A DNA stretch of 50,834 bases from Chloroflexota bacterium (GCA_024275195.1 JAJRZP010000067.1:1-50834); one strand, 5' to 3'. Shown: positions 1-12,818, counted from the stretch's first letter. The notes: a model not told the origin generated them from the letters alone. A program made the numbers and translations.

Positions 1-1738
1 ATGACTGCAGGTGGGCGATGTCGGTCCAACCTTTGACAGTCTCATCAGGATCCCAGTAAGCCAAGGCCATCTTCGCCACCGTTCCCGGCACGAAGATCGC
101 ATCGTCCGGGTCGCCTGTGTCCAGCGGCCGAGACATCTCGAAGATCCATGTGCCGTCGGCACCCGGACCAGAGCTGCGAGCCGTGTGCTCCCAGACACCC
201 GCCAACGAGTTCTCTGCCAGCAACGAACCATCGTCTTCACGTTCCGTCGGGGTAGTTGAATACTCGTCGTCGAAGTTGCAAGGTGGATCGTTTCCACCGG
301 TAACTCCATTAGCCTGGATGGCTATGCCGCCAGAGAGTGTCTCTGGGCCACAGTCAAGTTCCCAGTGCCAGATGTCTACCTTACCGAGGCTCGTATCCTG
401 ATCTTCGTCTGTTGTACCCATGTGGGGGGCAGCTTCAGGGTCGATCAAGAACATCACAGCACTCGCTGGCGACTTCTTGTTGTTGTCGGATACGTAGTCG
501 TAGTCGTCCGGAACCTCAAGAAGAACGTAGATGTTCTCGGTGTCGGTTGCGACACGGAGCGTCACGTCAACCGGAGGAAGCTCGGCCCATTCAAGACCGG
601 GGATCGGGTTGATCTGGCGCAGGCGAACCTGGGCACCAGATATGTCCTGCCAGTCCGACGTATCACCGTCAACGGCGATCGTCGCTGCACTGGCATTGAA
701 CGATACCTGTGAGGTCATCGCAGCAGCTGCCTCAGCAGCAGTGGGCACTGTGACTTCTATCCAACCGTGCTTTGAAGCCGATTGCAGGTGTCCTGCATCG
801 GTCCAACCCTTGTCGGTTTCGTCCGCTGCCCAGTAGGCAAGTGCGAGACTGTTGGTCTCTCCCAGAACGAATTGACCGTCTTGCGGGTCGTCGTTCAGCA
901 ATGGTCGGGACATCTCGAAGATCCATGTGCCGTCGGCACCCGGACCAGAGCTGCGAGCCGTGTGATCCCAGACACCGGTCAACGTGTTCTCAGCGGCTAA
1001 TGAATCATCATCTTCCCGCTCATCAACACTCACAGAGTACTCATCATCGAAGTTACACGCAGGGTCGTTCCCACCGGTAACGCCGTTGGCCTGGATACCG
1101 CCACCACCGGATATTGCACCTGGGGCACAATCAAGTTCCCAGTGCCAGATATCGACCAGCCCGAGAGAATTCTCGAGGTCGGTTTCATCCGATCCCATCG
1201 CGGGGCCCGCGGCCGCTTCGATCTTCGTCATCACAGCCAGGGCTGGTGAAAACCTGTGGTCGGCAGCGTTGTAGAGGAACTCGTCGGGGACCTCCATCAG
1301 CATGTAGACGTTGTCTGAGTCGACAGCCACGCGGAGCGAGACGTCGATAGGGGCGACTTCCCCCCACTCGTGACCTTCAATTGGCCCGGATTGTTCGAGG
1401 GTTACCGTTTGCGGGGTAACGCTGTCCCAATCGGCAGTGTCGCCATCGACAGCGATCGTCAGAGCTGCGGCATCAAATACCACCGGGGCAAACTGCGGTC
1501 GGCTCGGTGTGGTAGCCGTCGGGTCTGGCTTGGCTGTTGGTGCCGGAGCGTTTGTTGGCGGCACCGACGTTGTTGTCGGATCAGGCGCTGTCGTTGGTGC
1601 CGGTGCGCTGGTTGGCGCTGGAACCGCGGTCGACTGCACCGTAGGTGTCGCGGTTGTCTCGCTGGTACACGCCACCAGGGCGATCGCAGCAAGAACAATG
1701 AGCAAAGCCAACGCTCGGCGCCGGTACGTGCTCAACAT
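1..1738 (-). CDS. Lipoprotein with two tandem EB_dh-like (heme-binding) domains, 3' end cut by window edge
   Basis: The minus frame stays open from the ATG at 1738 to base 1 (579 codons, no stop), so the C-terminus is missing. An AAGGAG Shine-Dalgarno lies 8 bases before the ATG. Residues 9-24 form a lipoprotein signal ending LVAC, with Cys24 as the predicted lipidated residue. A Pro/Thr/Ala-rich linker follows to about residue 85. Then come two homologous domains of about 250 residues, each with DIWHWELDC, a GGNDP-CNFDDEYS segment and WIFEMSRPL. They match the C-terminal domain of the neighbouring cytochrome gene, which I place in the ethylbenzene-dehydrogenase gamma-subunit-like (EB_dh) family, a b-heme carrier in DMSO-reductase-type enzymes. 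Heme binding is inferred. This is the last visible gene of the 1-6073 operon and probably works outside the membrane in electron transfer. Confidence 0.8.
   Translation of the reverse strand, partial: MLSTYRRRALALLIVLAAIALVACTSETTATPTVQSTAVPAPTSAPAPTTAPDPTTTSVPPTNAPAPTAKPDPTATTPSRPQFAPVVFDAAALTIAVDGDTADWDSVTPQTVTLEQSGPIEGHEWGEVAPIDVSLRVAVDSDNVYMLMEVPDEFLYNAADHRFSPALAVMTKIEAAAGPAMGSDETDLENSLGLVDIWHWELDCAPGAISGGGGIQANGVTGGNDPACNFDDEYSVSVDEREDDDSLAAENTLTGVWDHTARSSGPGADGTWIFEMSRPLLNDDPQDGQFVLGETNSLALAYWAADETDKGWTDAGHLQSASKHGWIEVTVPTAAEAAAAMTSQVSFNASAATIAVDGDTSDWQDISGAQVRLRQINPIPGLEWAELPPVDVTLRVATDTENIYVLLEVPDDYDYVSDNNKKSPASAVMFLIDPEAAPHMGTTDEDQDTSLGKVDIWHWELDCGPETLSGGIAIQANGVTGGNDPPCNFDDEYSTTPTEREDDGSLLAENSLAGVWEHTARSSGPGADGTWIFEMSRPLDTGDPDDAIFVPGTVAKMALAYWDPDETVKGWTDIAHLQS
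132..187. repeat. 56-bp exact direct repeat, copy A (in EB_dh domain 2)
   Basis: Bases 132-187 are identical to 909-964, an offset of 777 bases (259 codons). In the minus frame both encode the same stretch, which includes SSGPGADGTWIFEMS. The flanking DNA of the two domains is similar but not identical, so this block is the most conserved part of an internal domain duplication. Confidence 0.9.
909..964. repeat. 56-bp exact direct repeat, copy B (in EB_dh domain 1)
   Basis: This is the partner of 132-187, in the same gene and the same codon phase. Identity of 56 bases at synonymous as well as coding positions suggests recent duplication or gene conversion between the two EB_dh-like domains. 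Confidence 0.9.
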
Positions 1739-1826
1739 GGCTGTTTCTCCTTTTCATTATTGTGGCCCAGGCACGGTGCAAGCCCGTGGGTAAGGGCAAA
1801 CTCATAAGCAATATCGGTATGGGTGG

Positions 1827-3221
1827 TCAAGGTAGTGTCACCTCGATCCATCCCATCCACGACGTCTGTAGGTGTCCGAGATCTGTCCAGCCCTTCTCAG
1901 ATTGGTCGGCATCCCAGTAGGCAAGTGCTACCTTGACTGTTTTGCCAGATTCCATCTGGGCGTCCTGAGGATCGCCTGTGATTAGAGGGCGGGACATCTC
2001 GAATGTCCAACGTCCATCAGTTCCGTTACCGCCATCGGAACCGGAGTGAAGCCAGACACCCTGCAGGCTGTTCTCGGCATCGGGCGACCCGTCGTCTTCC
2101 AGATCTTTGGGTGTCAGTGCGTATTCGTCGTCGAAGTTACATCCGGGGTCGTTCCCGCCTGATACACCACCGCCACCGGCCAGTTCGCCCGGTCCGCAGT
2201 CGAGTGTCCAGTGCCAGATATCAACCATCCCGAGGCTGTTGCGCTGGTCGTCCTCAGCAGCACCCATGGCGGTTTCTGCATCGGGTTCGATCAGGAACAT
2301 CACGGCGACTTTTGCCGAACGCTTCCGATCGCCGACCGTGAAATCGTAATCATCGTCGATCTGAAGCATCACGTAGATGTTCTGATCGTCAGTGGCGACG
2401 CTGATTTCCCCCTGCATCGGTGGTAGATCAGGGATCTTTTTACCAGGGATCGGTGCGATCGGTTCGAATATCACGCCCGCAGGCTCGATACCGGCCCAAT
2501 CGTCGATCAATCCATCGACAGTCATCGAGGCTGTCGTGGCAGTGAACGTCACTGGCAGATCAATCAGGGGAGGGGCGTCTGGCACTGCCGTTGGCGATGC
2601 CTCGACACTGACTGTCGGCGACGGATCAACACCGGTCTCCGGCGAAGATTCAGGGGCTACCGCAGTTGCGGTAGCGACATTCGGATCTGACGATTCTGGC
2701 GGATCTTGTGGTTTTGGCGTCGAATCCGGGTTGTGTACCGGAGGACTAACAACTGCAAGCGGCTTTTCAATTCCGAGGAACGCGGCGATAGTCGCCAATC
2801 GTTCGTCACTCAACACGCTAGACGTATAGGAAGGCATTCCCTCGTCGCCATCTCGCACGTGGTCGATGAAATCTTCCCACGTGACTTCACTCATGTCCGG
2901 GCCGACGATCCCGCCCGAACCATCGAGGCCGTGGCACGCGGCACAGCCGGAACCAACCCAGTTGGCGACGGGGTCTGCCGGGTCTGTCCCTTCGGCAGGT
3001 TGCCAGCCGTCAAGCGTTCCCGGCACTCCCACACGCGCTACTTTAGTTCGTGTGTAGTCTTCATTGACAGCGGAGTAGTTGAGGCGCGTATCATAGCCAT
3101 CGTCTGTGTTTGCCCACGGTCGCAACGTGACCTGAGCTACCAGAATGACCATGGTGGCGACAACTCCCAGAGTTATCGCGGCCGGAACTATTGATATCCC
3201 CAGTGGCAGCCCTTTACGCAT
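1827..3221 (-). CDS. Membrane-anchored cytochrome c fused to an EB_dh-like domain
   Basis: The 464-residue protein has an N-terminal membrane anchor (about residues 8-32), then one class I cytochrome c domain with heme motif CAACH at 93-97 and a likely distal ligand Met129 in GMPSY. A Pro/Ser/Thr-rich linker (about 155-235) leads to a C-terminal EB_dh-like domain (240-464) with DIWHW, CNFDDEYAL and FEMSRPL. EB_dh domains carry b-type heme in the gamma subunits of ethylbenzene dehydrogenase and relatives, so one polypeptide may hold a c heme and a b heme on the outer face of the membrane. It overlaps the upstream gene by 8 bases, which indicates one operon. The partner enzyme is not identified. 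Confidence 0.85.
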   Translation of the reverse strand: MRKGLPLGISIVPAAITLGVVATMVILVAQVTLRPWANTDDGYDTRLNYSAVNEDYTRTKVARVGVPGTLDGWQPAEGTDPADPVANWVGSGCAACHGLDGSGGIVGPDMSEVTWEDFIDHVRDGDEGMPSYTSSVLSDERLATIAAFLGIEKPLAVVSPPVHNPDSTPKPQDPPESSDPNVATATAVAPESSPETGVDPSPTVSVEASPTAVPDAPPLIDLPVTFTATTASMTVDGLIDDWAGIEPAGVIFEPIAPIPGKKIPDLPPMQGEISVATDDQNIYVMLQIDDDYDFTVGDRKRSAKVAVMFLIEPDAETAMGAAEDDQRNSLGMVDIWHWTLDCGPGELAGGGGVSGGNDPGCNFDDEYALTPKDLEDDGSPDAENSLQGVWLHSGSDGGNGTDGRWTFEMSRPLITGDPQDAQMESGKTVKVALAYWDADQSEKGWTDLGHLQTSWMGWIEVTLP

Positions 3222-3783
3222 CAGCCCTATCCCCCGTATTTTCGCCCAACCGTGCGATTTGCCATATTCGGAGAGCGATCAGGATGAACACCCCCCAGAC
3301 CACCAGTAGCACGATCGCAACCATCCATACGTTGGCACCGGGAATTCTGACCGGACTGGATTCCCTGTACAGCTGGCTGCCGGGTGTCACCTGGAGTGGA
3401 CTGCTATCCGAAGCGATGGTCTGATCGTTCTTCGATCTGGCGCGTGCTACAAGGGTGTGGTCCCCTTCCGCTCTCGGCATGTACTCGATTCGAGCTATGC
3501 CAGCATCGTCTGTGGTAGCACTTCCAATCAGGATGTCGTCAAAGTAACCCATGAACTCGACAGAGAGATTGAACTCAATGTCCTGTCCAGAGATAAGCTC
3601 GCCATCTGGCCCTGTGAGGATCGCTACCACCTCGATTATCGAGCCTGCCTGTGCGCTCTCGACTACCGATACATTCAGGGTAGGATCTGGTTCCTGCGCT
3701 CTCGCGACCTGAACCGTAACTAATGTGAAAAATAGTGCCAGAACCGGAAGTGCCTTCAGGAATCGCCGTGGAATCGTGTTCAT
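3214..3783 (-). CDS. Secreted Ig-like domain protein with C-terminal membrane anchor
   Basis: The start is the ATG at 3783, which overlaps the stop of the NrfD gene as ATGA; a longer in-frame start at 3936 would lie deep inside that gene. The 189-residue product has a signal peptide (about 1-29, ending VARAQ), a beta-rich domain of about 100 residues resembling bacterial Ig-like or transthyretin-like folds (segments TDDAGIARIEYMPRAEGDHTLVA), and a C-terminal transmembrane helix (about 152-175) followed by a short basic tail. No catalytic or cofactor motif is visible. Its place between the NrfD and cytochrome c genes suggests an accessory or assembly subunit of the same complex. I do not recognise a named family. 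Confidence 0.7.
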   Translation of the reverse strand: MNTIPRRFLKALPVLALFFTLVTVQVARAQEPDPTLNVSVVESAQAGSIIEVVAILTGPDGELISGQDIEFNLSVEFMGYFDDILIGSATTDDAGIARIEYMPRAEGDHTLVARARSKNDQTIASDSSPLQVTPGSQLYRESSPVRIPGANVWMVAIVLLVVWGVFILIALRIWQIARLGENTGDRADA

Positions 3784-5108
3784 GACGAAGCCTCCACAAC
3801 TGCATCGGTGCTCGGTTTGGGTGCCTCTTCTGCCTGCTCTTCCCGCAGTTCCCAGATAGCGACGATCGGGAGGATCTTCGTCAGGAACGTGATCAACAGG
3901 GCGAACACTGCAGTTCCTGCAAGCATCAACGACCACTCAACCCACGTCGGTGCGTAACTCGCAGCTTCGTACGGATTCAGAGGTACTCTCAACCCGCCAA
4001 CCACGATGAAGTACCGTTCTAAGAACATTCCTATGTTGGCAGAGATGCTGGCGATAAGAATGCCCTTCATGTTTCGGGTCCATGGCAGGCTGATTATCAG
4101 GAGCGGAAATATCAGACCGCCCCAGACGTAAGTCCAGAAAATCGGCGCCAGGCTCCCGCGGGTCATCTGGTCGATGAAGAACGATGAGTCGGCTGAGGTT
4201 TTGTACCCGAGAGTGACAAATTCGCTGACGTTGAAGAATGCCATGAGGACGGCGAACACAGCGAGCAGATAACCCAGCTTCAAGAAGTGTTGTTCAGTTA
4301 TCAGATCCTGCAACCGGTAAACACGCCTGATGATGTACATCAGGATCACGATCAGGCCTATGCCTGAGTAGATGGCCCCACCAACAAAGAAGATTCCGAA
4401 CATCGCCGAATCCCACGGCTCTCGGAGGGTCATGCTGAAAATCCAGGAGGTCACCGTGTGCATCATTACTGCCACCGGAACCATGATGATCGTCATGACG
4501 CTCATCGCAGAAAGAAGCACTCGATGCTGCTCAAAAGTACCTGTCCAGTTCACCGCGAACATGCGGTACAGGGCTTTTCGCACTCTGGCAGATCCCGGAA
4601 CCAGATCGCGAACAATTGCGATATCCGGTATCGCCGCCAGATACAGGTAGAGCAAACTGCCGATGAGGTAAGTCGTCAGGCCGTACACGTCCCATACAAG
4701 CGGTGACTCCCACCTGCCGAACAAGAGAATATTTGCGGCACGGTCGGGGCGACCCATGTCGAAGAAGATGAATATCGCAGCAACTATCAGCGCGGCAACG
4801 GTGACCATTTCGGCACTTCTGACAATCGGGCCACGCCATGAGGCGCCGGTTAGTCGCAGCACGGCAGAAACGAATGTCCCCGCCATGCTGGCACCAACAA
4901 ACATGACGAATAACGCCACGTAGAGACCCCACATAATGCGGTCACGCATACCAGTTACGATAAGCCCGTCTCGCGATTGGACGAAGTATGCCACCCCGCC
5001 CCAGGCGACTATGAGCAACAGCACCACTGTCCATATCCAGAACGATCGCGAACAATTGGTGATCGGTGCCAGTATCCGTGTTTCCAGTTCGTGGTTCGGG
5101 GTGCTCAT
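3780..5108 (-). CDS. NrfD/PsrC-family quinone-interacting membrane subunit
   Basis: This 442-residue, very hydrophobic protein has roughly nine to ten membrane spans. The first long helix is about 24-43, and the family-typical GLYVALFVMFVGASMAG segment lies near 61-77, with RPDRAANILLFGR about 125-137. NrfD/PsrC proteins anchor Fe-S partners and exchange electrons with menaquinol or ubiquinol. The gene overlaps the Fe-S gene upstream (ATGA, 5105-5108) and the Ig-like gene downstream (ATGA, 3780-3783), so the three are translationally coupled. Whether it oxidises or reduces quinone cannot be read from the sequence. Confidence 0.9.
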   Translation of the reverse strand: MSTPNHELETRILAPITNCSRSFWIWTVVLLLIVAWGGVAYFVQSRDGLIVTGMRDRIMWGLYVALFVMFVGASMAGTFVSAVLRLTGASWRGPIVRSAEMVTVAALIVAAIFIFFDMGRPDRAANILLFGRWESPLVWDVYGLTTYLIGSLLYLYLAAIPDIAIVRDLVPGSARVRKALYRMFAVNWTGTFEQHRVLLSAMSVMTIIMVPVAVMMHTVTSWIFSMTLREPWDSAMFGIFFVGGAIYSGIGLIVILMYIIRRVYRLQDLITEQHFLKLGYLLAVFAVLMAFFNVSEFVTLGYKTSADSSFFIDQMTRGSLAPIFWTYVWGGLIFPLLIISLPWTRNMKGILIASISANIGMFLERYFIVVGGLRVPLNPYEAASYAPTWVEWSLMLAGTAVFALLITFLTKILPIVAIWELREEQAEEAPKPSTDAVVEASS

Positions 5109-6073
5109 TTACCGTCCCTCCGCCATGTCTTGGTCGTGGGATCATCATCACCGATCCACGTCACAGGAAGCCGTCCATGTGTCAACGGGTCGCGTCCGGC
5201 AAGTTCGCCGTGCCCGGGTATGTAGTAGACCCGCGGCCGGGTACCAAGCTCTTCTTTCAGCCGTGTCGCTGAGTTATGAGCAAGAAACTCGCTGATCTTT
5301 ACGACATCGACACCGTTGGTAGCCAGATCTTCTTCGAAATCGCCGTAGTAAATTGCGTTCTGTGGGCATGCCTGTGCGCAGAACGGTAACCTTCCTGCAC
5401 GTGCCAACTCGGGGCAGAAGTCACACTTTGCGACCGTGCCTTTTTTCAGCGGCACTTGATGCTCTGCTGAACGCTCGACGAGATCGGCTTCGCTCGGGAT
5501 CGACGGGTCACCCCATGTGAAGAATCGTCGTTCGTATGGGCATGCGACCATGCATAGCCGACAGCCAATGCACCGATCCTGGTCGATCAGTGTGACGCCC
5601 TCGGGAGTGGTCCATGTCGCTCCGACCGGGCAGACTGCCACACATGGAGCATTCTGGCACTGCTGGCAGGGAGTAGGAAAGAAGTTCGATCCTTCAGTTG
5701 GCATCGATGCCCCGATACCAGTAAGTTCCCGTTCTTTACTCAGTTCGTGCTCGTAGACCTCGATCCATTCCATCGGTTCGGGTATGAAATGGCCATCGTT
5801 ACATGCCTGTGTGCACTGTGGGGGAGTTCCCTGTGACTGACAGCCATCGCAGTAGCGTTGATCTATGATCATCATCCACTGGCGCACACGCTGCGAATCC
5901 TGTGGGGTGCCATCTACGGATGACGTCGTATCCTCATTCGGGAATACATCGAGAATACTTCCCGGCAGGAGTGTAGAGAGACCAGCTATCGCACCGGTGC
6001 CTGCCGCCAATTCCATGAACTTGCGACGGCTTACCTGCCATTTTCGGTCATTCTCAGTGCGATCTAATTCCAT
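5105..6073 (-). CDS. Tat-exported four-cluster Fe-S protein (PsrB/NrfC/DmsB-like)
   Basis: The 322-residue protein starts with a twin-arginine signal (SRRKF at 15-19, then a hydrophobic stretch to about 38), so it should be exported folded with its clusters. Four cysteine sets are visible: CDGC with C87 and C91, CQQC-NAPC-VAVCP (136-149), CIGCRLCMVACP (168-179) and CDFC with CAQACP (217-236). This is the pattern of ferredoxin-like electron-transfer subunits of molybdopterin oxidoreductases and related complexes. It is the first gene of the minus-strand operon and is followed directly by NrfD. No catalytic molybdopterin subunit precedes it. Confidence 0.9.
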   Translation of the reverse strand: MELDRTENDRKWQVSRRKFMELAAGTGAIAGLSTLLPGSILDVFPNEDTTSSVDGTPQDSQRVRQWMMIIDQRYCDGCQSQGTPPQCTQACNDGHFIPEPMEWIEVYEHELSKERELTGIGASMPTEGSNFFPTPCQQCQNAPCVAVCPVGATWTTPEGVTLIDQDRCIGCRLCMVACPYERRFFTWGDPSIPSEADLVERSAEHQVPLKKGTVAKCDFCPELARAGRLPFCAQACPQNAIYYGDFEEDLATNGVDVVKISEFLAHNSATRLKEELGTRPRVYYIPGHGELAGRDPLTHGRLPVTWIGDDDPTTKTWRRDGK

Positions 6074-6656: not shown

Positions 6657-7865
6657 ATGTCGAATCAGTACAAAGCCGCAATCGTTGGTTGCGGGTCGAT
6701 CGGGCAGGCGCACATGCAGGGTTACGACCGCCTCGACAACGTCGACGTTGTTGCGGTAGCCGATCCGATCGACGCGGCGCGCAGTATGTACATGACCGAG
6801 TACGGAATACCGCAGGGCTACGCCACGGTTGCAGAAATGCTGGAGAAGGCCCAGCCCGATATCGTCAGTGTCTGCGTCTGGCACCTTCTGCACGACACAG
6901 TCACCGCTGAGGTCGCTACCGGATCCTCGGTGAAAGGCATCATCTGCGAAAAGCCGATGGCGATCGGAATGGGCAGGGCCGATGCGATGGTCGATGTCTG
7001 TGAGGCCAACGGGGTGAAACTGGCGATCTCACATCAGCGGCGGTTCACCCCCGGCTGGGAGAGGGCGAAAGAACTGGTCGAAGATGGCGCCATCGGCATT
7101 CCGCTGCGCGCCGACCTCCGGGTAAAAGAGGGACTGGCAAACTGGGGAACGCACTCTATTGATGGCGCAAGGTTCATTCTCGGCGACCCTGTTGCCGAGT
7201 GGGTTATGGGCGCGGTTGAACGTCGCACCAACAAGTTCGAACGGGACACCGCTATCGAAGATGCCTGCATGGGCCTTATCCATTTCGGCGGTAGTCTCCA
7301 GTTCTTCATTCAGTCTGACCTCTGGGATCGAAACTGCGACGCAGGCAAGTTCTTTATCCGCGGAACTGAAGTAATGCTCCATGTCACCGAAACCGTTCTG
7401 AAGCTGTTCAATGCTGAGTCTGGTGGATGGAAGAACATCGACCTCGGACTCAAAGAAGGCGATCAGGCGATCGGCGGAAATACCAACGCTGCACAGACGC
7501 GCGAACTAATCGAGTGGATTGAAACCGGCAAGGAAAGCCGTGGGTCGGGTCGAATCGCCCGCGACACGGTCGAAGTAATGATGGCGATGTACGAGTCGGC
7601 ACGTCACAACAGGGTCATCAGGCTCCCGATGGAGGAGAAGGAATACCCGCTCGACCAGATGATCGGCGAGGGCAAACTCCCGCTCGAAGACGAAGAGCGC
7701 TACGACATACGCGGCTTCCTTGATCGATCTCAGATCGACGAAACGCGTTACCAGCAGCTACGTGACGACGGAATCCCTCACCATCAGGCGATGAGCATAG
7801 TCCACTCAGAGATGGGCACGACCGGTATCCGCCCTGCCCCCGATCTGCCCTCTTTAAAGAAGTAA
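6657..7865 (+). CDS. Gfo/Idh/MocA-family NAD(P)-dependent oxidoreductase
   Basis: The 402-residue protein begins with a Rossmann dinucleotide-binding motif (IVGCGSIGQAH, about residues 9-19). It carries the family EKP signature (IICEKPMAIG, about 97-106) followed by a C-terminal alpha/beta domain. Members oxidise or reduce sugars, inositols, amino acids or related compounds; the substrate cannot be assigned here. The gene stands alone, and its stop is only 9 bases from the stop of the convergent PilM-PilN gene, with no evident terminator between them. A weak GGAAACC ribosome site precedes the ATG. Confidence 0.88.
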   Translation: MSNQYKAAIVGCGSIGQAHMQGYDRLDNVDVVAVADPIDAARSMYMTEYGIPQGYATVAEMLEKAQPDIVSVCVWHLLHDTVTAEVATGSSVKGIICEKPMAIGMGRADAMVDVCEANGVKLAISHQRRFTPGWERAKELVEDGAIGIPLRADLRVKEGLANWGTHSIDGARFILGDPVAEWVMGAVERRTNKFERDTAIEDACMGLIHFGGSLQFFIQSDLWDRNCDAGKFFIRGTEVMLHVTETVLKLFNAESGGWKNIDLGLKEGDQAIGGNTNAAQTRELIEWIETGKESRGSGRIARDTVEVMMAMYESARHNRVIRLPMEEKEYPLDQMIGEGKLPLEDEERYDIRGFLDRSQIDETRYQQLRDDGIPHHQAMSIVHSEMGTTGIRPAPDLPSLKK

Positions 7866-7874
7866 CGAGGCGGG

Positions 7875-9908
7875 CTATTCGAAATCACCTGCCGCGGCAA
7901 GTTCGTCACCGGGCAAAAGCTCGCTATCGTCGATTTCGATGCGTGTGATCACAAGCGACGCCTCGACGAGCTGCTCAATCGCATTAGTGCCGTCATCCGG
8001 TGTGCCCTCATCCGGTGTGCCCCCAAATAACGTACCTCCACCCAGCGGAGACGGTTCGAGATCATCGTCCGGCTCTGCCGTGGTTTCGCGACCCAGGCTC
8101 GATACTTGAACGCGCACGAACTGCGGCACATCTTCCAATAGCCGGATATACGCCAGCATCTCAGGATAGTCGGCAGATTCTGCACGGACAGCGACGATTC
8201 GCCCATCATCGTCAATAGAAGTTACCTGCACTTCCGAAGGTGCAACATCATTAATAACGATCACCGTATCGGCGAATCCTGCATCGCGGTCTTGCAGCAC
8301 CTCGTTGGCGGCAATCAGTCGTTCGGTTCGTTGCCGCGCGGAATCGAACAGCAGTCTGGCGCTCTGTGTTTCCGCAAGTTTCTGGGTTCGTATGTCAGAC
8401 CGTACCTCGAGAACCTCAACTGTCCTGCTCGCCTGATAGAGAGAGTCCGACTGAACTGTCATCACCTGGTAAGAAGTAAATATCCCGAATCCAAGAATGA
8501 GCGCAACCGCAATCTTTAGCACCGCGGCAACCGGAAGCGGTCGCGGTCGATACTGGTCTGGCCGGTAGTCAAACTTCGGAACCGGCAACAGAGGCACCGG
8601 TGCCCGCTGCCAGAACCGCTTACCCGAAACGATCACAAGGCCAACATTCGCAGCATATTTCTCAAATGGAAAATCTTCAGGTGCCCGGAGCGTGCGCGGC
8701 ATTTCGGCTCGAATATACGGAAGTTTCTCAAGAGCGTTCACAACCGCCTGTTCGGCACGATCTGTCTCACCGGTCAGGAACACCTCCACCGCATCTCCCA
8801 GCGGTTCGTCGGGGAAGATCGAATCGTAGAAGGCGACGGCGCGGGACACCTGTGTGGTGACAATATTCTCCCATTCGACAGCAGAAATATCTGAATCGAG
8901 TCCGACTTCTCTGATCACCTCGGGCAGACCATTGCTCACAACTGCCGTAATCAAAGTGTTCGACTCGATATCGAGAACAACCCCGGCCGGACTGTTCACG
9001 GCTGCTGCCAGCGCGAGAATTTTGGGCTGCACCCCGGCGAATCGTGTGCTGAACTCTGAAACCGTCCGAAGGTTCCTGCGTATCACGTGCTTATGTAAAG
9101 CCAGCGCGTATACGTCGTACGGATCACCGTCCGGCTCAAGGTCGCCCTCGATACTTAGATTCTCAAGCCCCAGGTCTTCGGGACCGCTGGGGCGGGAAGT
9201 GAGCTCGGCCGTGGGCTCGATACTATCGATATCTGCGTCCCTGTTCGCGCCATCGTCCAGTCCCAACTCCTCATCTTCTTCAATCAGGTCAAGCTGCTCC
9301 GCGTCCCACGCGATGTGCATCTCTTCTGTACGAATCGACATGGAATCTGAACTGGCGGTGATGATCGCTTCGGCCAGTTCGTCGTCATCTTCGACGAAGA
9401 CAGTCAATCTGCGCTGCACCATATTCCTGCCGGTAATTGCTACTGCAACCTTCTGGCCGTTCAACTTCCCGTTCCGTGTGACGTCCTTGATAACGTCGCT
9501 CAGCACGTCGAGGAAGGTCTGCTCATCGACGATTAGGCCGTGTTGAACTACTCCTGCTGGCAGTTCAGACTCCGCCCAGGCTCGAACCTTGTTGCCACGA
9601 GCTGTAATCACTCGAACGAACCCGTCGGCGATAGTGACCGTTATCAGCGCTCCGAACGGTGCTGATACGGTGCGCCCAACTGCACTTGCACCATGCTTGA
9701 GTGCTTGAGCTGTGTTCGGGCCTAACCTTCCGAATGGGCCGTTGTCGTGTCGCTCGTCAGGTAGCACTTGTGGCGACGGTTTCACCGACTGGAACAACAG
9801 TTCAGTGGTGACACGCCGCAGACGCGCGCCCAACCGTGAGACTTTGCCCGGTGCAGACGTTGTGTCGGCATATTTCGGGGCGCGCCGTTGCCACTTGGTT
9901 GAAATCAT
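7875..9908 (-). CDS. pilM: PilM-PilN fusion protein of the type IV pilus inner-membrane platform
   Basis: The 677-residue protein has an unusual basic N-terminal extension (1-80), a PilM/FtsA-like actin-fold domain (about 86-430) with a very acidic insertion at about 204-262, and a PilN-like part. The PilN-like part has a PLLPVP motif near 439-445 resembling the PilN INLLP peptide, one transmembrane helix at 460-480, a coiled region and a ferredoxin-like domain to about 600. A Gly/Thr/Asp-rich tail with a short GTPDEGTPDDGT repeat follows. PilM and PilN are normally separate proteins that bind each other; here they are one chain. The start overlaps the PilO-like gene stop by ATGA. It is the last gene of the pilus operon. 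Confidence 0.85.
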   Translation of the reverse strand: MISTKWQRRAPKYADTTSAPGKVSRLGARLRRVTTELLFQSVKPSPQVLPDERHDNGPFGRLGPNTAQALKHGASAVGRTVSAPFGALITVTIADGFVRVITARGNKVRAWAESELPAGVVQHGLIVDEQTFLDVLSDVIKDVTRNGKLNGQKVAVAITGRNMVQRRLTVFVEDDDELAEAIITASSDSMSIRTEEMHIAWDAEQLDLIEEDEELGLDDGANRDADIDSIEPTAELTSRPSGPEDLGLENLSIEGDLEPDGDPYDVYALALHKHVIRRNLRTVSEFSTRFAGVQPKILALAAAVNSPAGVVLDIESNTLITAVVSNGLPEVIREVGLDSDISAVEWENIVTTQVSRAVAFYDSIFPDEPLGDAVEVFLTGETDRAEQAVVNALEKLPYIRAEMPRTLRAPEDFPFEKYAANVGLVIVSGKRFWQRAPVPLLPVPKFDYRPDQYRPRPLPVAAVLKIAVALILGFGIFTSYQVMTVQSDSLYQASRTVEVLEVRSDIRTQKLAETQSARLLFDSARQRTERLIAANEVLQDRDAGFADTVIVINDVAPSEVQVTSIDDDGRIVAVRAESADYPEMLAYIRLLEDVPQFVRVQVSSLGRETTAEPDDDLEPSPLGGGTLFGGTPDEGTPDDGTNAIEQLVEASLVITRIEIDDSELLPGDELAAAGDFE

Positions 9909-10624
9909 TGGGCATCCATCCCTTCAACAGGAACAATGGGAGTGATCGCTAACTCGGCTTCGTCGGCTGGCTCTTCCTTGCCGAAATTTTCAGGCAACGA
10001 GTAGTAGAGGCCCCGCAGCGATAGCTGATACCCAACCAGGCCTTCTTCGATCGACAGCGCTTCGATACCGAATGCGGCGAACTCACCTGTCTCCAGCAAT
10101 GCGAGATAGCGTTCGATACCGCTGATCGTTCCGATTGCGGTGATCAGCACGGGCGTAGCGGTGTAATCCTCATTTTCGATCGTCACGACACCGTCGAGGG
10201 TCGTTCCAGTCTCCACTATCACCAGCCCAGAATCAGACGCAGCGTTGATTACCCGCTCGATCAGGTCGGAGTCCTCGGGTCGGGTGGTTCGTCCATCCAT
10301 CACCACCCGGTACGCGGTGTCCCAGCCACCCGCCTGTAGCAACAGTATCTCTGGTTGAGGAGCCGGTTGGTCAAGCAGTATCGTCAGTTGATCTGACCTC
10401 TGCTTCAGGCTCCTCTCTTCACGAACATCCTGCAACCATAAAACCCCGATAGCCAGAAACACGACCCCGAATATGGGTACGAATACGACTGTCCGGCGAA
10501 GATGCCAGGCAACTGTCTCTGCAACGGCAAGTAGTCGTTTGCCCGTCGTCAGATCGAGTTCTTCCCCGTCAGGCTCGTTGCCATCGAAATTCTGCTCGCG
10601 CCGGTGGTTCGCTCTACTCGTCAT
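9905..10624 (-). CDS. pilO: PilO-like inner-membrane pilus platform protein
   Basis: The 239-residue protein has a charged cytoplasmic N-terminus, one transmembrane helix at about 47-66, a short coiled segment (REERSLKQRSDQL) and a periplasmic alpha/beta domain. This is the topology and size of PilO, the partner of PilN that links the platform to the rest of the machine. Sequence identity to classical PilO is low, so the call rests on topology and position: it lies directly between the pilin-like genes and the PilM-PilN fusion, and its stop overlaps the fusion start (ATGA). Confidence 0.7.
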   Translation of the reverse strand: MTSRANHRREQNFDGNEPDGEELDLTTGKRLLAVAETVAWHLRRTVVFVPIFGVVFLAIGVLWLQDVREERSLKQRSDQLTILLDQPAPQPEILLLQAGGWDTAYRVVMDGRTTRPEDSDLIERVINAASDSGLVIVETGTTLDGVVTIENEDYTATPVLITAIGTISGIERYLALLETGEFAAFGIEALSIEEGLVGYQLSLRGLYYSLPENFGKEEPADEAELAITPIVPVEGMDAQ

Positions 10625-10627
10625 GGT

Positions 10628-11911
10628 CTAACTCTCAACCCATGAAATAATCTCTATTCCTGCGTTCGTCAGTGTGATTTGGACTGTCACGGTCTGCCCG
10701 TTCTGTGTCGCGGTGATCGTGTAGTGTCGAACTACCGAGATCGGAGCCGTATCACCGGTCGAAGATGTCGGTTCGAGCCAGTTGGCTTCTTCGTCTTCCA
10801 CTACCCGAACCGCACTCGATGCAAAAATCGTCCCCGGCAATGGTGATCCGGTGATATCGAACTGGAGAGTTACGAAGCCGGAAGCAGGAATTATCACCGA
10901 GCTCGGCGTCCACGTATAAACCCAACGACTGTTTATGAAGTCGAGCGTTCTGGCGGGGTCGGCGGTGGTCAAGCCCGTTGTAGATCCCGGAACATGATCC
11001 AGATAGTTCGGCACATAGTGCTTCAGCCAATCGATCGTGTAGTCGGTCAGTCCGTTGTTAGTGATCGTCACGGTGTACGTAAATGTTTGAGCGGAGCCTG
11101 CAGTCACCTTGTTCGGCGTGACCACGGTCGATACGTCGATATCGTTGATAACAACTGCTCGAACGTAGGCATCCAGCGGAGCATAGACGTTGCCTTCGCC
11201 ATTCACTCTGACAATCCCGGCTGTCCAGTACTGCCCCTCTGGCAGATCGAATGTCATGCGCCAGCTTATCGATGTCGTCCCGCCGAATCCCGGAACCGAA
11301 ACCGGAGTGAGCAGTTCCCACGTGTAAATTCCGAAAAACACCGTCGGGTTCTGCGTTGTCGCACCAGTCGTCGAACCCGAGATGTACGAGGGCGAGAAGA
11401 ACAACGGAATGGCACGGAAACGCGTCACATCCTGCGCCTCATCACCATCGTTTATCAACGTCAGGGTGAATGTGATCTCCGTTGCGGTATCCGGCTCGAT
11501 AGTAGTTGGTGAAACGTTGATCGATGCCCGCAAGCCCTGATTCGTTGGAGGGTCTGACGAAGCGACGATATTGATGTTGGCATCGCCGGTCGGGAACCCA
11601 AGAACGTAGTCTGTTGAAGGAGGAGAACCGGTCATCTCGTCATGCACTGCCGGGTCGTTTTCCAGTCGCCAGAGCGCATGTTCAGCAGCTGATCGAGCAT
11701 CGACCGACGCCGATGCTCCTGCCGTGGTAGTAAACGACCCGACAACTATCTGCATGGCAGGTGCCGCCAGCGATGTGCCGACCAGAAGGCCGATCAGTGC
11801 CAGTGCCAGGGTCGATGCGCCACGCTGGCCAGACCCGGTCTGAGCGCGTTCGGCGGGAAGTACCGCAGAACCGATTCTCGAAAGCAATGGGAATATCTCC
11901 GCTGCAATCAT
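10628..11911 (-). CDS. Pilus-locus secreted protein with PilX-like N-terminus and DUF11-like repeats
   Basis: I take the ATG at 11911, which overlaps the upstream TGA as TGATG; an in-frame GTG at 11914 is an alternative. The roughly 427-residue product has a hydrophobic segment (GASTLALALIGLLVGTSLAAP, about 30-50), after which SVDARSAAEHALWRLENDP resembles PilX/minor-pilin openings. The rest consists of about two beta-sandwich modules like DUF11 conserved repeats (ITFTLTLINDGDEAQDV; FTYTVTITNNGLTDYTI). It may be a large minor pilin or pilus-exported adhesin. It lies in the pil operon between a prepilin-like gene and pilO. Confidence 0.65.
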   Translation of the reverse strand: MIAAEIFPLLSRIGSAVLPAERAQTGSGQRGASTLALALIGLLVGTSLAAPAMQIVVGSFTTTAGASASVDARSAAEHALWRLENDPAVHDEMTGSPPSTDYVLGFPTGDANINIVASSDPPTNQGLRASINVSPTTIEPDTATEITFTLTLINDGDEAQDVTRFRAIPLFFSPSYISGSTTGATTQNPTVFFGIYTWELLTPVSVPGFGGTTSISWRMTFDLPEGQYWTAGIVRVNGEGNVYAPLDAYVRAVVINDIDVSTVVTPNKVTAGSAQTFTYTVTITNNGLTDYTIDWLKHYVPNYLDHVPGSTTGLTTADPARTLDFINSRWVYTWTPSSVIIPASGFVTLQFDITGSPLPGTIFASSAVRVVEDEEANWLEPTSSTGDTAPISVVRHYTITATQNGQTVTVQITLTNAGIEIISWVES

Positions 11912-12405
11912 CACCCTGCTCCCAGTGCGACATTGAGCGAAATCGAGTCGGAGATATCGGGGCGATCAACCGCAATGACGTCGTAGGAAATCGTGATCAG
12001 ATCTCCGGTGCGTTCGAACGTCAAATTCTCGATATTCCTTGCGATGCTCAGTGTCACAGAATCACACGTACGTGAGAACTCGCTCGAAACCAGTGCGTAG
12101 TCGCAAACACGTGCCCCACCACCGTCGGTCCAGGTGAACTGAGCAGTCGCCTGTGTTCCACCGCCATCGGGGATATCGGTCGCAGTGGCGAGATGAATGT
12201 CACGTACCAGCCACGTGGTCGATGTCGATGTATCGACAGCCACTCTCATGATCGCGGCATTGCGGGAGTTCAGTTCCCATCCCTGCCCGAGCATGCTGAT
12301 AACGAGGGAACCGAGAATACCCATGAATCCGACTGCAACCGCGAACTCAAGCAGAAAAAGACCACGCTCTCCGGAGCGGTTGCTTTTTCGAACGTTCGAC
12401 TTCAT
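11911..12405 (-). CDS. Type IV prepilin-like protein (minor pilin)
   Basis: The start is the ATG at 12405; the frame is open further upstream, but that part lies inside the neighbouring gene. The 164-residue product has a short basic leader and the cleavage-site-like sequence ERG-LFLLEF, with Glu at +5 of the mature form. A hydrophobic helix (about 17-40) follows, then a beta-rich domain with two cysteines (VCDYALV and RTCDSV). This fits a minor pilin of PilW/PilV type. It ends by overlapping the start of the next gene (TGATG). Confidence 0.75.
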   Translation of the reverse strand: MKSNVRKSNRSGERGLFLLEFAVAVGFMGILGSLVISMLGQGWELNSRNAAIMRVAVDTSTSTTWLVRDIHLATATDIPDGGGTQATAQFTWTDGGGARVCDYALVSSEFSRTCDSVTLSIARNIENLTFERTGDLITISYDVIAVDRPDISDSISLNVALGAG

Positions 12406-12413
12406 GTTCGGAG

Positions 12414-12818
12414 TCAACGGTTCACCTTCAACGTCGAGGTTTCGAAAACCGTCGTGCCGCTCTCGGTGACAGTCACGGTTACAAGCTGGATATTCGAGTC
12501 TCCTCCAGCAACCGCAGAGGTGGTATTTGAAACGACAAACCCGGCAGGGGCGGCGACAGATGTGTAGGTGCCGGGAGTTGTGACGTACGTCGCAACTCTC
12601 ACCAGTTCCATTTGTGAGGTCGCCACCCACTGTGCAGTTGCAGCGTCATCGATAAATTCGGCTTTCTTAGATGCTGTGGAAAACGCGAGAACAACCGCCA
12701 ACATTGCCGTACCGACGATGCCGACTGCCAGCATCATTTCGATCATCACGAACCCGCGCTCAGATGCACTTGATCCGGGCGAACTCTGTGGTCGAATTGT
12801 GAGATGTTGCAGTGACAT
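12414..12818 (-). CDS. Type IV prepilin-like protein (minor pilin)
   Basis: The ATG at 12818 is preceded by a GGAGG ribosome site; an upstream in-frame start would include the ribosome site itself. The 134-residue product has the prepilin signature ERG-FVMIEMMLAVGIVG, with Glu+5, then a hydrophobic helix and a short beta domain. It lacks the paired C-terminal cysteines of many major pilins. It is the first of three consecutive pilin-like or secreted genes, 8 bases before the next, and its ribosome site lies in a perfect palindrome (12827-12842). Confidence 0.8.
   Translation of the reverse strand: MSLQHLTIRPQSSPGSSASERGFVMIEMMLAVGIVGTAMLAVVLAFSTASKKAEFIDDAATAQWVATSQMELVRVATYVTTPGTYTSVAAPAGFVVSNTTSAVAGGDSNIQLVTVTVTESGTTVFETSTLKVNR

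Follow-up and report, generated by a model that had tools for sequence, protein, structure and literature searches.

A five-gene Fe-S/NrfD operon of a marine Chloroflexota bacterium with a probable EB_dh b-haem output

The operon at the left end of the window (the whole 50,834-nucleotide stretch of DNA analysed here) is best read as a self-contained NrfD-type quinol:cytochrome oxidoreductase module with an EB_dh b-haem output, and we put the probability of this reading at about two in three. It draws on features that could be observed directly: the gene content and completeness of the operon, its conserved order in relatives, the exchange of its partners, the predicted fold of the EB_dh domains, and the conservation of quinone-site residues and of a Met at a known haem-ligand position. 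EB_dh domains are known mainly as accessories of molybdenum enzymes, and here they occur in an operon that has no such enzyme. The quinol-oxidising core of Fe-S, NrfD, Ig-like and cytochrome c proteins appears to take interchangeable terminal partners, and its combinations include a periplasmic nitrate reductase donor arrangement distinct from NapC and NapGH.

Gene content and boundaries of the operon

The host genome is that of a marine Chloroflexota bacterium (2.7 Mb, 92% complete), in which the window makes up contig C41 in full; its nearest relatives, judged from the contigs, are Chloroflexota MAGs, Dehalococcoidia among them. All five open reading frames of the operon described in the initial annotation were found again, on the - strand, as follows.

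5105..6073, - strand: Tat-exported ferredoxin-like Fe-S protein, DsrO/NrfC-like, with four 4-Cys motifs (16 Cys)
3780..5108, - strand: NrfD-type membrane subunit, DsrP/ActC-like (PF03916), with quinone-site residues
3214..3783, - strand: Ig-like membrane-anchored protein with a signal peptide and a C-terminal TM helix; core subunit
1827..3221, - strand: monohaem cytochrome c fused to one EB_dh domain, with an N-terminal anchor, CAACH at residue 93 and EB_dh at residues 225-464
1..1738, - strand: two-domain EB_dh lipoprotein with a lipobox and EB_dh at residues 87-332 and 346-590
1..129, strand ".": join to contig C157, an exact overlap with the C157 end

The tight overlap that had been described for the operon holds for its upstream part, where the Fe-S and NrfD genes share 4 bp, the ATG of the Ig-like gene lies at 3783, inside the end of the NrfD gene (3780), and the Ig-like and cytochrome c-EB_dh genes share 8 bp. 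It does not extend to the lipoprotein gene, which follows the cytochrome c-EB_dh gene after a gap of 88 bp. Pfam profiles identify the NrfD subunit (PF03916, E 1e-33), the EB_dh domains (E 1e-32 and 3e-14) and the cytochrome (cytochrome CBB3, E 2.5e-11), and the Fer4 domains of the Fe-S protein exceed the Pfam cut-offs. The Ig-like assignment is a weak one at the level of profiles, with a match to Big_1 (E 0.007) that falls under the cut-off; the protein itself is kept at the equivalent position in many relatives.

The Fe-S protein carries the Tat motif SRRKF, and its 16 Cys fall exactly into the four 4-Cys sets. Its best NCBIfam profile is DsrO, at 155 bits, which does not reach the equivalog cut-off of 200. 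The NrfD subunit exceeds the curated cut-off of PF03916 (117.5 against 25.8 bits) and scores 125 bits with the NCBIfam DsrP profile, below the equivalog cut-off of 350. Four residues, Tyr52, Asp106, Ser124 and Asp129, have been proposed to form the quinone site of DsrP1 (PMC8076601), and Y63, D117, S135 and D140 of the NrfD subunit reproduce their spacing exactly. The best match of this subunit among solved structures is ActC (6f0k_C, E 1e-49), and the Ser conserved across NrfD proteins aligns with ActC Ser164. The DsrP1-like spacing, the Tat-exported Fe-S protein, the anchored cytochrome c and the lipoprotein together bear out the earlier description of a quinone-linked, outward-facing module.

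The initial annotation had seen no molybdopterin subunit upstream, where the neighbour is a divergent Gfo/Idh/MocA oxidoreductase gene (6657-7865, + strand), and had placed any such gene beyond the left edge of the window. Since the operon is transcribed from right to left, the region left of base 1 is its downstream side. The terminal 129 bases of contig C157 are identical to positions 1-129 of the window, and this 129-mer is present in the host genome at these two contig ends and nowhere else, so that the C41-C157 join is unambiguous and an assembly repeat at the left edge is ruled out. On C157 the lipoprotein is completed by 11 further codons and a stop (L069, to 9658), for a total of 590 residues, and is followed by peptide ABC-transporter genes encoding an oligopeptide-binding protein and then two permeases. 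We found no molybdopterin gene on either flank, including C157 past the left edge, where a molybdopterin oxidoreductase gene directly downstream would have lain; a gene hidden there is ruled out by the join. From the join and the flanking genes, the operon consists of exactly five genes and has no molybdopterin subunit, its downstream context in the window depending on that one join. There is a small residual chance that a further, near-identical EB_dh domain was collapsed at the edge.

Beyond the upstream neighbour, positions 7875-12630 (- strand) hold overlapping genes that resemble a type IV pilus or secretion set, with one weak PilN match; the other genes tested there gave no clear Pfam match.

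A conserved core and its partners

Relatives of the NrfD subunit were gathered from named genomes and from the order of the host, represented by 250 genomes. Searched for as a neighbourhood across these genomes, the core of Fe-S, NrfD, Ig-like and cytochrome c genes, in this order and on one strand, was recovered from 31 non-redundant loci in Chloroflexota and some neighbouring phyla, and its EB_dh version from eight loci besides the window.

Four types of partner accompany the core. In the first, napAB lies upstream, directly so in four genomes (G013, G064, G054, G059) and at a distance of some 4 kb in G014. The second has a beta-propeller lipoprotein upstream (G017, G006, G021, G224, G164) and, where the contig extends, genes for a 212-residue protein (u212) and SCO1 downstream. 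The third is the EB_dh type, with nine loci: the window, G021, CSP1-4, GWC2_73_18, RBG_16_64_32, G149, two in G150 and one on an Actinomycetota contig. The order Fe-S, NrfD, Ig-like, cytochrome c, EB_dh is repeated in G021, CSP1-4, GWC2_73_18, G149 and G150, and also in RBG_16_64_32 (L050) and L137, both truncated upstream; on the Actinomycetota contig (L049) EB_dh lies upstream of the Fe-S gene. EB_dh-type lipoproteins contain up to four of the domains, and G021 has five in all, one fused and four in tandem. In the fourth type, MtrC/F-like decahaem cytochromes are encoded near the core (L038, L053, L058).

Eleven molybdoenzyme, beta-subunit and gamma-subunit queries were used to scan these neighbourhoods, their many matches at other loci serving as a control, and placed a molybdoenzyme near one of the nine EB_dh loci. 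The distribution of the EB_dh partner was also traced over 58 NrfD sequences. On their tree the EB_dh label requires 8 changes, against a mean of 8.5 for shuffled labels, and no fewer than 7 are imposed by branches with good support; the NrfD subunit of the window is sister to two propeller-type sequences (76-78% identity). Because the label is scattered like shuffled labels and the closest sequences are of another type, the tree indicates that partners have been swapped among cores that are close relatives, or lost on many occasions.

Several features of the related loci may be recorded here. In five napAB-linked clusters (L074:2503-10779, L076, L113, L123 and L075), napA and napB are followed by the Fe-S, NrfD, Ig-like and cytochrome c genes and by a second cytochrome, which is dihaem and collagen-like; this makes a nitrate reductase donor arrangement without NapC or NapGH in the cluster. 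The propeller lipoproteins, encoded directly upstream of the Fe-S/NrfD core (L034:7206-8888 +, L035:7272-8894 +, L117:15071-16804 -, L122:2522-4099 -, L118:7071-8636 +), share about a dozen invariant His across the five members. The L034 protein has no Pfam match, and a fold search placed YVTN, lactonase, WD40 and NosZ propellers in a single broad band (Z 25-31). A NosZ-type identity was rejected, the L-NosZ profile giving 21-23 bits where the cut-off is 700, and no homologue of the propeller was found in the host genome. Genes for a histidine kinase and a LuxR-type response regulator, typed by Pfam, lie near EB_dh operons at L037:6264-8839, L043:6709-8187 and L047:6234-8885, with homologous reading frames at L114:1-1305 and L135:1033-3236; none was seen beside the window operon.

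EB_dh domains, electron flow and acceptor

The three EB_dh domains named in the initial annotation, one fused to cytochrome c and two on the lipoprotein, are real: the two proteins score 114.5 and 54.1 bits with PF09459 (curated cut-off 33.3), and 53.5 and 38.7 bits with the haem-b subunit profile TIGR03477, whose cut-off of 169.85 is not reached. An AlphaFold model built on an alignment of 11 domains (pLDDT 76, pTM 0.82) matches EbdC best (Z 20.7, 2.5 angstrom over 196 residues), followed by NxrC (Z 17.8), CBM9 modules (13.6) and cellobiose dehydrogenase cytochromes (8.8). The b-haem of NxrC is held by Met155 and Lys305, and that of EbdC likewise (PMC8387239). The Met is invariant in all 15 EB_dh domains aligned; at the Lys position none of the 15 has Lys, T, S or E standing there instead, and an invariant His follows four residues past that place. 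A global hhalign comparison, in which the C-terminal part of the alignment is unreliable, likewise paired Met with Met. With the Lys ligand missing from every domain, haem binding needs another ligand or fails. In cellobiose dehydrogenase, a b-haem with Met/His ligation occurs in the same broad fold. We suggest that the EB_dh domains likely bind b-haem, that each probably holds one, and that Met and the nearby His are the candidate ligand pair. The initial annotation allowed for up to one c-haem and three b-haems; the number of b-haems is a putative one, since of the two known axial ligands the alignment retains Met alone in every domain, with a His near the place of the lost Lys.

A PF09459 search of the host genome returned one further EB_dh protein outside the operon, on contig C143 (L112:5175-6842 -; 147 bits, 555 residues, with a CxxCH motif), and no molybdopterin hit on that contig.

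In the scheme that we favour, haem binding and its Met/His ligation, the direction of flow, the formation of a complex and the acceptor are the predicted elements. The NrfD subunit would oxidise membrane quinol close to the outer face and feed the electrons into the exported Fe-S protein, whose four clusters would relay them to the anchored cytochrome c. Next in line would be the EB_dh domains, one on the cytochrome and two on the lipoprotein, which would release the electrons to an acceptor in solution or at the surface; the Ig-like protein would be a structural subunit of the core. EB_dh sits where relatives have NapAB, decahaem cytochromes or a copper-linked propeller set, which argues that it is the plug-in output of a common core. 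This suggests that EB_dh domains have a second role in which they carry electrons on their own, perhaps by means of a new pair of haem ligands. A bolder proposal, which we regard as speculative and rather doubtful, is that tandem EB_dh domains, freed from a molybdoenzyme and ligated by Met/His, carry quinol electrons to the cell surface in the manner of multihaem c cytochromes, which may themselves serve as surface conduits beside the same core in other lineages. If true, b-haem proteins could fill a role hitherto credited to multihaem c cytochromes, and care would be needed where genome annotation of such bacteria takes EB_dh as a marker for the oxidation of ethylbenzene or nitrite.

None of the five operon genes encodes a terminal acceptor. 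The host genome has a NapA on contig C162 (1134 bits, cut-off 930.6) with NapB beside it, on a different contig from the operon and with no adjoining donor gene, and a search of the genome for NapC (PF03264) and NapH gave no family match for the former and nothing above cut-off for the latter. Six of the 250 genomes of the order have NapA, and all six fall among the 24 that bear the core (hypergeometric 4e-7, kinship ignored). In five of them (G013, G064, G054, G059 and G014), where NapA exceeds the NCBIfam cut-off, the core is preceded by napAB on its own strand; in G059 the contig ends where the Fe-S gene starts, and the linkage is visible up to that point. Since related cores adjoin napAB, it is plausible that the catalytic partner is encoded elsewhere in the host genome, and the orphan napAB, the lack of NapC and NapH, and the six-of-six co-occurrence make NapAB of the same genome the leading candidate for the acceptor. 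A narrower form of the main reading, compatible with it, would make the operon a dedicated donor in trans that oxidises quinol and reduces NapB/NapA encoded on the other contig. We rate this version as less likely than not. The same four observations favour it, and against it stand the position of the window NrfD with propeller-type loci, outside the napAB-linked clade; the other EB_dh-type genomes of the order, G021, G149 and G150, which have the same gene order and no NapA above cut-off; and an ACIII-like complex on contig C144, which could also serve Nap.

The lost Lys ligand invites the reading that the EB_dh domains are haem-free, acting as CBM9- or DOMON-like binding or scaffold domains, with the c-haem as the sole haem; the shared CBM9 fold and weak matches to CBM9/DOMON profiles point the same way. 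We consider this unlikely, given that the Pfam EB_dh match exceeds its cut-off, that EbdC and NxrC lie 4-7 Z units above CBM9, that both the Met and the His near the Lys place are invariant, and that EB_dh is fused to or adjoins redox proteins in nine loci. Flow could also run in reverse, with electrons of an external donor entering through the surface b-haem proteins and quinone being reduced by the NrfD subunit. NrfD complexes are known to work both ways, Qrc and Nhc being listed as quinone-reducing (PMC8076601), and the EB_dh subunits of EbdABC and NXR accept electrons from their own enzymes. Most partners of the same core, however, are either reductases, such as NapAB, or terminal conduits, such as the MtrC-like cytochromes, and the high redox potential of the NXR b-haem (PMC8387239) would suit downhill quinol oxidation, so that we judge reversal distinctly improbable.

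Hardest to sustain is the reading of the operon as an accessory conduit for a type II DMSO-reductase-family enzyme encoded elsewhere. In RBG_16_64_32, type II DMSO-reductase-like alpha, beta and gamma genes (L050:5324-11108 -) do lie about 2 kb downstream of the EB_dh operon, on the opposite strand, and their gamma subunit retains both Met and Lys. The other eight EB_dh-type loci have no molybdoenzyme gene nearby, and type II alpha or beta subunits were found neither in the window operon nor on C157. The host genome has four molybdopterin hits, namely NapA (C162), the ACIII-like cluster, a gene with one TGA (C53) and a NuoG/Fdh-like gene (C169), and of these the C162 and C169 genes, profiled against NCBIfam, are not type II alpha subunits. 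We therefore retain the quinol:cytochrome oxidoreductase module with an EB_dh output and regard the type II connection as very unlikely.

Comparison with known systems

The initial annotation took the absence of a catalytic subunit to be the unusual point. That absence alone is not unusual, because NrfCD, SirCD, Cbc4, DsrJOP and the NrfD-type menaquinone:cytochrome c oxidoreductases are known modules without a molybdopterin subunit; the unusual part is the EB_dh output. In the openly searchable literature, subscription papers lying outside it, we did not find the order Fe-S, NrfD, Ig-like, cytochrome c, EB_dh described.

By the features tested, the operon is not a member of the Dsr, ACIII or type II DMSO reductase systems. 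It resembles the DsrJOP part of DsrMKJOP in that DsrO and DsrP are its closest NCBIfam profiles, in its quinone-site spacing and in its paired c-type cytochrome; it lacks DsrM, DsrK and the trihaem DsrJ, scores below the equivalog cut-offs and has the Ig-like and EB_dh proteins in addition. With alternative complex III (ActABCDEF) it shares the ActC match and, as predicted here, the passage of electrons from quinol to cytochrome c, but not the pentahaem ActA, the Mo-like domain of ActB or the second NrfD, and the host genome has the separate ACIII-like cluster. The likeness to the type II gamma subunits EbdC and NxrC lies in the predicted fold and the position of the Met ligand. In contrast to these, the EB_dh domains of the window have lost the Lys, have a His nearby, are fused to cytochrome c or arranged in tandem, and have no alpha or beta subunits beside them.

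Where the core of relatives stands directly behind napAB, it occupies the place expected of a quinol dehydrogenase such as NapC or NapGH, from both of which the Fe-S/NrfD/Ig-like/cytochrome c module differs in composition, NapC being a tetrahaem protein; in the window genome napAB does not adjoin the core. In Planctomycetota, one study noted unassigned NrfD gene clusters that follow Nap and Nxr genes on their downstream side (PMC10732223). In Methanoperedenaceae, NrfD-type menaquinone:cytochrome c oxidoreductases pair NrfD with a 4Fe-4S protein and cytochromes in an outward path (PMC7327174); their output consists of multihaem c cytochromes, whereas that of the window operon would be one c-haem and the EB_dh domains. 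In SirCD from Shewanella and Cbc4 (CbcSTU) from Geobacter, an Fe-S protein and an integral membrane subunit deliver electrons of the quinol pool to pathways in the periplasm, and neither system has its own catalytic subunit (PMC11434368). Compared by their described composition, both lack Ig-like and EB_dh parts, and Cbc4 includes a c-type cytochrome, CbcS. By analogy with these systems, the best reading is that the operon would work like SirCD, Cbc4 or DsrJOP, as an outward quinol dehydrogenase that needs no catalytic subunit of its own.
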